Part shown: positions 24,131-25,953 of the stretch, piece after piece | Layout: each line of letters begins with the position of its first letter | Numbering within the stretch: position 1 is the stretch's first letter | From: an uncultured Neglectibacter sp. | Lineage (GTDB): Bacteria > Bacillota > Clostridia > Oscillospirales > Acutalibacteraceae | Length of the DNA stretch: 40,887 bases | NCBI GenBank assembly: GCA_904391645.1 | Contig: CAJFMJ010000003.1 | Coordinates: 1-40,887 of the forward strand | Direction of reading: 5' to 3' | The notes under the pieces: generated by a model | Database searches by the model: none | What the model was told of the DNA's origin: nothing | Seen by the model: only the letters and a program-made list of their open reading frames with translations | Position numbers and translations under genes: made by a program

Positions 24131-24159
24131 TTGACAACCGCCCCACTCCGTGGTATGCT
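24131..24159 (+). promoter_or_regulatory. SigA promoter of the ABC-F gene
   Basis: TTGACA - 17 nt - TATGCT. Confidence 0.75.
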
Positions 24160-24191
24160 TTACCTGATTTTTGAATGAACGGAGTGAAAGG

Positions 24192-24203
24192 ATGCGCAAA
24201 TAA
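24192..24203 (+). CDS. Candidate 3-codon leader ORF (Met-Arg-Lys-stop)
   Basis: GGAG tgaaagg ATG CGC AAA TAA: good SD spacing, in the leader of the ABC-F gene. Confidence 0.5.
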   Translation: MRK

Positions 24204-24348
24204 GCCTTAAATCGGGAAAATCGGAAAGAAGCTTTCGGGCATGGCCCGGGGGCGGTTCCGTGCTGCCGGTTTTTGTGGCTTAGCCATCCTTTTTTTGCAG
24301 CCAGCGCCAGGGCATTCTGGCTTTGGCCTGCCTTTCCCTGGGGATGAT

Positions 24349-24384
24349 GGGCCTGTTCCGGCAGCGGAACAGGCCCTTTGTTGT
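24349..24384 (+). terminator. Leader terminator (attenuator) of the ABC-F gene
   Basis: GGGCCTGTTCCG GCAG CGGAACAGGCCC then TTTGTTGT; perfect 12-bp stem just upstream of the RBS. Confidence 0.75.
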
Positions 24385-24399
24385 ACCCAAGGAGGTTTT

Positions 24400-25953
24400 A
24401 TGCTGCAAATTCGGAACTTAAACGTCACCATGAAAAAAGACCTGCGCCAGCTGGTGAAAGACTTCACCTTTGCCCTGGGGCCGGGGGATAAAGTGGCCAT
24501 CATCGGGGAGGAGGGCAACGGGAAGTCCACCCTGCTGAAGCTCCTCTACGACCCGGCCCTGGTGGAGGGCTATGTGGAGTACACCGGCACCATCCAGCGG
24601 GACGGCACAATCCTGGGCTATCTCTCCCAAGAGCTGCCCCCGGAGCAGGCAGGGCTTTCCGCCTACCAGTTCTGCTGTGAAGAGCCAGCCTTCCTGGACG
24701 CCTCCCCCGGGGAGCTGGCAGCGGCGGCCAAACAGCTGCACTTCCCCCTGGAGTGGTTTTATGCAGACAGGAAGATGTCCACCTTTTCCGGCGGGGAGAA
24801 GGTGAAGCTGCGCCTGGCCCTTTTGACCCTCCGCCGCCCGGACTGCTACCTGCTGGACGAACCTTCCAACGACCTGGACATTGAAACCCTCCAGTGGCTG
24901 GAAACCTTTATCCGGGAATGTCCCGTGCCGGTGCTGTATATCTCCCACGACGAAATGCTGTTGGAGGCCACCGCCAACGCGGTGTTGCACCTGGAGCAGC
25001 TGCGGCGCAAGACCCTGCCCCGTTGGACCCTGGCCCGGATGGGCTACCGCCCCTATGTGGAGCAGCGGCTGCAGGCCTTTGCCCACCAGGAGCAAGTGGC
25101 GAAAAAGGAGCGGGAGGAGGACAGAAAGCAGCAGGAACGCTTCCGGAAGATCCAGCAGAAGGTGGAACACAGCCTGCAAACGGTTTCCCGCCAGGACCCC
25201 CACGGGGGAAGGCTGCTGAAAAAGAAGATGAAGGCGGTGAAGTCCCTGGAGCACCGGTTGGACCGGGAACGGCAGGACCTGACGGAATTCCCCGACAGCG
25301 AAGAGGCCATCCTGGTGGGGTTTGGGGAGGGCGTGGGCCTTCCCGCGGGGAAGACCGTGCTGGACTTCTCCCTGCCCCGGCTGGAAACCCAAGAACGGCT
25401 TCTGTCGGAAAACCTGCGGCTGTATGTGCGAGGGCCGGAACACGTGGGGATCATCGGGCCAAACGGGGCGGGAAAAACCACCCTGCTGCGGCAGATCGCC
25501 GGGGAGCTTTTGCCCCGGACAGACTTGCAGGTGGCCTATATGCCCCAGGACTACGGGGAAACCGTGGACCAAACCCTGACCCCGGTGGAGTTCCTGGCAA
25601 AAAGCTGGGAAAAGGAGGAACTCACCCGGGTGAAGACCTACCTGGGCAGCATGAAATACACCCCCCAGGAGCAGGAGCACGCCATCGGGGAGCTTTCGGG
25701 CGGGCAGAGGGCCAAGCTATTCTTTTTAAAGATGATCCTGGATGGGGCCAATGTGCTGGTGCTGGACGAACCCACCCGGAATTTCAGCCCCCTGTCCGGG
25801 CCGGTGATCCGGGGCATCCTGGCGGATTTTCCAGGGTGCATTCTCAGCGTTTCCCACGACCGGAAATACCTGGGGCAAGTGTGCTCCACCCTGTACCGGC
25901 TGGAACCTCAGGGCCTGGTGAAAGTGCCCAACCCCTGGGCAGAACAACCCTGA
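24400..25953 (+). CDS. ABC-F family ATP-binding protein (ribosome-associated, possible antibiotic-resistance type)
   Basis: MLQIRNLNVTMKKDLRQLV; two ABC domains GEEGNGKST/FSGGEKVKL/LLDEPSNDLD and GPNGAGKTT/LSGGQRAKL/VLDEPTRNFSPLSGPVIR; charged interdomain linker; RBS aaggagg. Confidence 0.9.
   Translation: MLQIRNLNVTMKKDLRQLVKDFTFALGPGDKVAIIGEEGNGKSTLLKLLYDPALVEGYVEYTGTIQRDGTILGYLSQELPPEQAGLSAYQFCCEEPAFLDASPGELAAAAKQLHFPLEWFYADRKMSTFSGGEKVKLRLALLTLRRPDCYLLDEPSNDLDIETLQWLETFIRECPVPVLYISHDEMLLEATANAVLHLEQLRRKTLPRWTLARMGYRPYVEQRLQAFAHQEQVAKKEREEDRKQQERFRKIQQKVEHSLQTVSRQDPHGGRLLKKKMKAVKSLEHRLDRERQDLTEFPDSEEAILVGFGEGVGLPAGKTVLDFSLPRLETQERLLSENLRLYVRGPEHVGIIGPNGAGKTTLLRQIAGELLPRTDLQVAYMPQDYGETVDQTLTPVEFLAKSWEKEELTRVKTYLGSMKYTPQEQEHAIGELSGGQRAKLFFLKMILDGANVLVLDEPTRNFSPLSGPVIRGILADFPGCILSVSHDRKYLGQVCSTLYRLEPQGLVKVPNPWAEQP

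Follow-up and report, generated by a model that had tools for sequence, protein, structure and literature searches.

A probable ribosome-mediated transcription attenuator with a three-codon upstream open reading frame ahead of a divergent ABC-F gene in Acutalibacter/Neglectibacter-like bacteria

The leader of a divergent ABC-F gene in the window, by which we mean the whole 40,887-nucleotide stretch of DNA analysed here, is read as a ribosome-mediated transcription attenuator of the vmlR/cplR type, with a probability of roughly 0.86. Very probably, it turns on a likely ribosome-protection gene of gut Clostridia only when a drug freezes the ribosome on a three-codon upstream open reading frame (uORF). 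The mechanism is already known from vmlR and cplR in Bacillus and Clostridioides and is not new, and the leader family is new to Rfam. The elements of the leader, with the coordinates of the window, are as follows.

24131 to 24159, + strand: SigA-type promoter TTGACA-17-TATGCT with TG ahead of the -10, from a motif search; similar promoters occur in orthologues
24181 to 24191, + strand: Shine-Dalgarno (SD) region serving the uORF, GGAGTGAAAGG; 64 leaders give a consensus around this motif
24186 to 24226, + strand: segment 1, the 5' side of the anti-antiterminator (SD end, uORF and 20 nt further), from the free fold and native-versus-swapped pairing
24192 to 24203, + strand: three-codon uORF ATG CGC AAA TAA (MRK*), a length that recurs in orthologue leaders
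24231 to 24253, + strand: central hairpin, the apex of the anti-antiterminator in the free fold; a hairpin is visible there in leaders of the genus
24255 to 24272, + strand: 5' strand Y of the antiterminator (GTTCC-gt-GCTGCCGG), which segment 1 holds when the leader folds freely
24277 to 24293, + strand: segment 2, predicted by folding to partner either segment 1 (uORF region) or 24340-24353 (antiterminator helix X)
24340 to 24353, + strand: segment 3, antiterminator 3' strand X predicted by folding, which extends into the beginning of the terminator 5' arm
24349 to 24376, + strand: predicted intrinsic terminator, a 12-bp hairpin with loop GCAG and tail TTTGTTGT
24358 to 24370, + strand: antiterminator 3' strand Y (CCGGCAGCGGAAC), covering the terminator loop and flanks; exact complement, and the pairing covaries
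24390 to 24395, + strand: SD AGGAGG of the ABC-F gene, read from the sequence
24400 to 25953, + strand: divergent ABC-F protein gene, 517 aa, probable ribosome-protection (ARE-like) factor

Several of these elements had been named in a preliminary description of this DNA. The promoter is present where it was placed, as is the uORF, with GGAG at 24181-24184 lying 7 nt ahead of the ATG (24192-24194) and the stop TAA at 24201-24203. The perfect 12-bp terminator hairpin just before the ABC-F ribosome-binding site was confirmed, although its T-tract (TTTGTTGT) is imperfect and weaker than in many relatives. The antiterminator complementarity proposed there is exact, with GTTCC (24255-24259) and GCTGCCGG (24262-24269) facing CCGGCAGC (24358-24365) and GGAAC (24366-24370), and folding adds a second antiterminator helix (24277-24291 with 24340-24353) to the single one described. 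The suggested pairing of TAAGCC (24201-24206) with GGCTTA (24277-24282) is found in the computed free fold and proves longer than stated, as part of a helix between 24186-24226 and 24256-24293 that includes the end of the uORF SD, the start codon and the stop, and closes over antiterminator strand Y. The leader as a whole folds more stably than all of 200 shuffles (z = -5.1). Within the genus, TGCCGG in the 5' strand Y is largely conserved. One SigA-type promoter match was found in the leader region against 0.5 expected, and TTGACA/TATAAT-like promoters occupy the same relative position in most orthologues. A terminator hairpin precedes the gene in nearly all uORF-bearing leaders, the exception being one clade. 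Elsewhere in the genome, another DNA match (L002, 1509-1537) is an ordinary terminator at the end of a different gene, with a stem (GGGCCTGTT...AACAGGCCC) nearly that of the leader terminator, and was rejected.

The host of the leader and gene is an Acutalibacter/Neglectibacter-like bacterium, and the ABC-F gene is present in 28 of 29 genomes of the genus; named relatives with an orthologue include Neglectibacter timonensis, Candidatus Acutalibacter pullistercoris and similar organisms. The locus looks chromosomal rather than mobile because its neighbours are recA and recX, upstream on the opposite strand, and an M28 peptidase gene. The protein is an ABC-F protein, yet it lies outside the named ARE families, falling under the curated cut-off of every named subfamily (VmlR, VmlR2, CplR, Vga, Lsa, Msr), with scores of 267 bits against a cut-off of 380 for NF000355, 192 against 725 for Vga and 144 against 780 for CplR. 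The closest solved structure by sequence is 8BUU, the VmlR2 entry and model of PMC10201436; this relationship, together with the leader, suggests that the protein is probably a ribosome-protection (antibiotic-resistance) factor. A longer in-frame ORF (24241-25953, 570 aa) was considered as the coding sequence and rejected, as it would cross RNA elements that are conserved, and in many orthologues an in-frame stop lies near the gene start. Annotation could mistake the beginning of this ORF, which overlaps the terminator, for the start of the ABC-F gene.

Homologue searches yielded 102 distinct orthologue upstream regions, in which the uORF ATG was picked by promoter distance and SD, blind to ORF length; 26 regions had no promoter call and 17 no promoter-anchored ATG. 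Exactly three codons were found in 50 of the 59 promoter-anchored uORFs, against about 2% expected per leader (~2% of the triplets in these leaders are stops), which gives a nominal binomial p of ~1e-75 that treats the leaders as independent when many are related. When leaders were clustered by similarity, the three-codon uORF was found in 49 of 54 clusters. Codons 2 and 3 vary widely (MRK, MLV, MLK, MFA, MIG, MRL, MRF, MRI, MKK and others). MRK is itself written with six different Arg/Lys codon pairs (CGC AAA, CGC AAG, CGT AAA, CGG AAG, AGG AAG, AGA AAG), and on this coding evidence selection appears to act on the translated uORF peptide. By inspection, some regions missed by the automatic rule do carry three-codon uORFs, several of them in Lachnospiraceae with MRR, MFR, MYR or MLR. 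A search for the uORF-region pattern in 300 family genomes returned eight places, four of them ahead of genes of this ABC-F family and four being chance matches within unrelated genes.

Other leader layouts were observed among the orthologues. Lachnospiraceae regions L030, L032, L040, L043, L051, L065 and L069 have longer leaders with MRR, MFR, MYR or MLR three-codon uORFs, an AATCT/AGAT-type pairing and a terminator farther from the gene. In L010, a putative leader ORF of greater length (MKKTVYRLPQK...) lies in the region ~50-300 nt before the ABC-F start, and another short ORF, MKNNIA, sits near the gene. A Ruminococcus-like clade (L006, L044, L046, L060, L072, L078) is without the leader; in L006, L046, L060 and L078 a promoter lies ~50-60 nt ahead of the gene, which suggests constitutive expression.

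Compensatory changes preserve two pairings, that of the uORF with the anti-antiterminator and that of the antiterminator with the terminator. When the leaders were aligned by column with MAFFT, RNAalifold returned no consensus pairing and a first covariance model from the alignment captured sequence only, because spacers of variable length misalign the pairing arms; fixed-column covariation counts for the antiterminator and terminator were weak for the same reason. Native-versus-swapped duplex tests were therefore used, in which partners were exchanged between leaders, either in all swaps or among nearest relatives, after four leaders with doubtful terminators had been set aside. For the anti-antiterminator, native partners beat swapped ones over all swaps (p = 1e-10) and over nearest-relative swaps (-26.3 versus -22.4 kcal/mol, p = 5e-8), while the native antiterminator/terminator pairing was stronger than swaps in general and than nearest-relative swaps (the latter at p = 1e-4). 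These tests amount to the covariation search that the preliminary description had named as a check, and both pairings covary. The compensated pairing can also be read directly, as TAAGCC/GGCTTA in the window, TAAGGCC/GGGTCTTA in L102 and AAGTCT/AGACTT in L013, with further re-invented versions in L005 (ATAATCTATTTTC/GAAAATAGATTAT) and L008 (AACCTGTAA/TTACAGGTT).

Switching was computed with the ribosome modelled as a fixed unpaired block on the uORF and with terminator positions set by a simple search and three manual corrections. With this block in place, nascent RNA ending at 24364 is predicted to form 24277-24291/24340-24353 together with 24263-24269/24358-24364. The probability of the antiterminator helix in the window leader was 0 at every length tested without a ribosome, whereas a ribosome placed at the uORF AUG raised it to 0.85-1.0 for transcripts ending at 24364-24370. 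Across the leaders, less three with doubtful terminators (of the four left out of the swap tests), a ribosome weakened the nascent terminator in 44 of 54 when placed at the AUG and in 50 of 54 at the stop, compared with 52 of 324 trials (16%) on shuffled leaders (native versus shuffled, p ~1e-10); a block of equal size in mid-leader had little effect on terminator formation. Beyond these lengths, the complete terminator of the window wins at equilibrium even with the ribosome bound, and no terminator is lost, so the switch must act kinetically, during transcription, as expected for attenuation. The earlier suggestion that a ribosome on the uORF could switch the fold thus finds a counterpart in the computed nascent folds, which shift away from the terminator. 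The reading as ribosome-mediated attenuation likewise draws support from the conserved uORF, pairings and terminator with their compensatory changes.

The proposed sequence of events would be as follows. In the absence of drug, the three-codon uORF would be translated and the ribosome would leave at once, so that free segment 1 (SD, uORF and stop) could pair with segment 2 as an anti-antiterminator that also holds antiterminator strand Y; the hairpin at 24349-24376 would then form and transcription would stop ahead of the ABC-F gene. A drug of the peptidyl-transferase centre, most likely a pleuromutilin, lincosamide or streptogramin A, would freeze the ribosome at the start or early codons of the uORF, where it would cover segment 1. 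Once the polymerase reached 24340-24353 and 24358-24364/70, the freed segment 2 and strand Y could pair with these stretches, and the terminator would be delayed and the ABC-F gene read. We infer uORF translation, stalling and termination in vivo; the drug class, the stalling position and resistance are put forward by analogy with precedent.

One clade appears to couple the same sensor to a different output. Six leaders (L004, L022, L104, L109, L111, L114), and probably L021, have no usable terminator upstream of the ABC-F gene; in the six, a hairpin (TGCGCATA...TATGCGCA) encloses the main SD, with no clear T-tract. For four of the six, folding predicts the antiterminator helix only if a ribosome occupies the uORF (probability 0 without it, ~0.9-1.0 with it). 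An equilibrium test of SD accessibility in this clade was negative, and a scan over nascent lengths resolved the matter, the SD hairpin being delayed by the uORF ribosome in all six. With L021, the seven leaders form one clade of the ABC-F tree (SH-aLRT 100 in a quick tree), and the best interpretation is that output moved once from transcription to translation in this one clade of the genus, which retained the sensor.

The existence of this clade, and the fact that cplR mostly works that way (PMC10201436), lend some weight to the idea that the window leader too acts mainly on translation, the terminator hairpin or its neighbours limiting access to the ABC-F SD with little termination of transcription. 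We consider this unlikely for the window, where the hairpin ends 13 nt ahead of the SD and is followed by a T-run, and where placing a ribosome on the uORF brings no increase in the computed accessibility of the SD and start of the ABC-F gene. Macrolide-specific arrest of a nascent chain on the uORF, as in the msrD or ermD leaders, is a very improbable account: the peptide has just three residues, and many relatives (MLV, MFA, MIG) lack any basic residue, although R and K do occur in macrolide/ketolide stalling motifs (PMC8298421). Moreover, vmlR, with its three-codon uORF, is described as uninduced by the non-cognate erythromycin (PMC9226507), and the MLV uORF was unstalled by erythromycin in toeprints (PMC12421871).

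An amino-acid-responsive attenuator of the trp/his type, in which a shortage of charged tRNA holds ribosomes at the Arg or Lys codon, would fit a uORF with one codon of each and a layout like that of classical 1:2 / 2:3 / 3:4 attenuators. In relatives, however, LV, LK, FA, HA, IG, RF and others stand at the same codons within the same structure, so that length is conserved and not residue, and the gene controlled encodes an ABC-F protein rather than a biosynthetic enzyme; there is little chance that this reading is correct. Least credible is an ordinary 5' region, in which the promoter is constitutive, the mini-ORF arose by chance and the terminator belongs to an antisense or small RNA from upstream. 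Similar GGGCCTGTT... terminators do serve ordinary genes in the same genome (L002), but the uORF, pairings and terminator recur in dozens of diverged leaders, and their covariation makes such a reading a very long shot.

No Rfam covariance model matched the leader, even at E-values up to 5, and neither it nor the Clostridial ABC-F leader family was found in the papers searched, a set outside which many subscription papers lie. The early suggestion that the leader and its minimal uORF may be undescribed therefore holds, within those papers, for the leader and its family and fails for the uORF, since three-codon uORFs, MRK included, are published. We think it reasonably likely that a large unnamed class of three-codon-uORF attenuators controls this Clostridial ABC-F family, that the selected trait is length rather than residues, as in a generic start-codon-stalling sensor, and that within one genus the output module was naturally exchanged once, a hairpin that sequesters the SD taking the place of the terminator while sensor and antiterminator stayed the same. 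If the attenuator reading is right, Acutalibacter, Neglectibacter, other Oscillospirales and Lachnospiraceae of the gut would have an intrinsic drug-inducible ABC-F gene with a control RNA missing from Rfam and a protein product under the curated resistance cut-offs, and common gut bacteria would thus hide an inducible tolerance to lincosamides, pleuromutilins or streptogramins. The natural set of tripeptides and the terminator-to-SD swap would offer direct tests of three-codon length and of change in attenuator output.

Among known systems, the vmlR leader of Bacillus subtilis has a uORF, MIN, in a bulge of its anti-antiterminator hairpin, at whose start codon lincosamides and pleuromutilins stall the ribosome; the variants MDN and MDK equal wild type, and MRK is functional but less efficient in B. 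subtilis (PMC9226507). The window leader shares with it a three-codon uORF in an anti-antiterminator hairpin, an alternative antiterminator and an intrinsic terminator before an ABC-F gene. It differs in controlling another ABC-F protein, in having an antiterminator of two helices, to the terminator loop and into its 5' base, and in that no counterpart of the vmlR SD hairpin was seen in it. The likeness to vmlR or cplR is one of anatomy, and common descent of the leaders is not claimed. Published uORFs further include MR[I/M] in cplR, MK[L/Q] in vmlR2 and MAGN in LsaA (PMC10201436). The cplR leader of Clostridioides/Clostridium, which is induced by retapamulin and lincomycin (PMC10201436), likewise places a three-codon uORF in a hairpin and a terminator before the ABC-F gene. 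There the terminator covers the SD as well, and control is exerted mainly at translation, whereas in the window terminator and SD are separate; the sister clade described above shares SD sequestration with cplR and is the only clade like cplR in that respect. In Streptomyces, the are5sc uORF MLV shows start-codon stalling by lincosamides, tiamulin and pristinamycin IIA (PMC12421871); this system differs in being actinobacterial, in its TTG start and in an overlapping second uORF. Termination before an ABC-F gene is likewise relieved by a ribosome stalled on a leader ORF in msrD and other leaders of macrolide ABC-F genes, but there the leader peptide is longer and the macrolide arrest is sequence-specific (PMC10314930).
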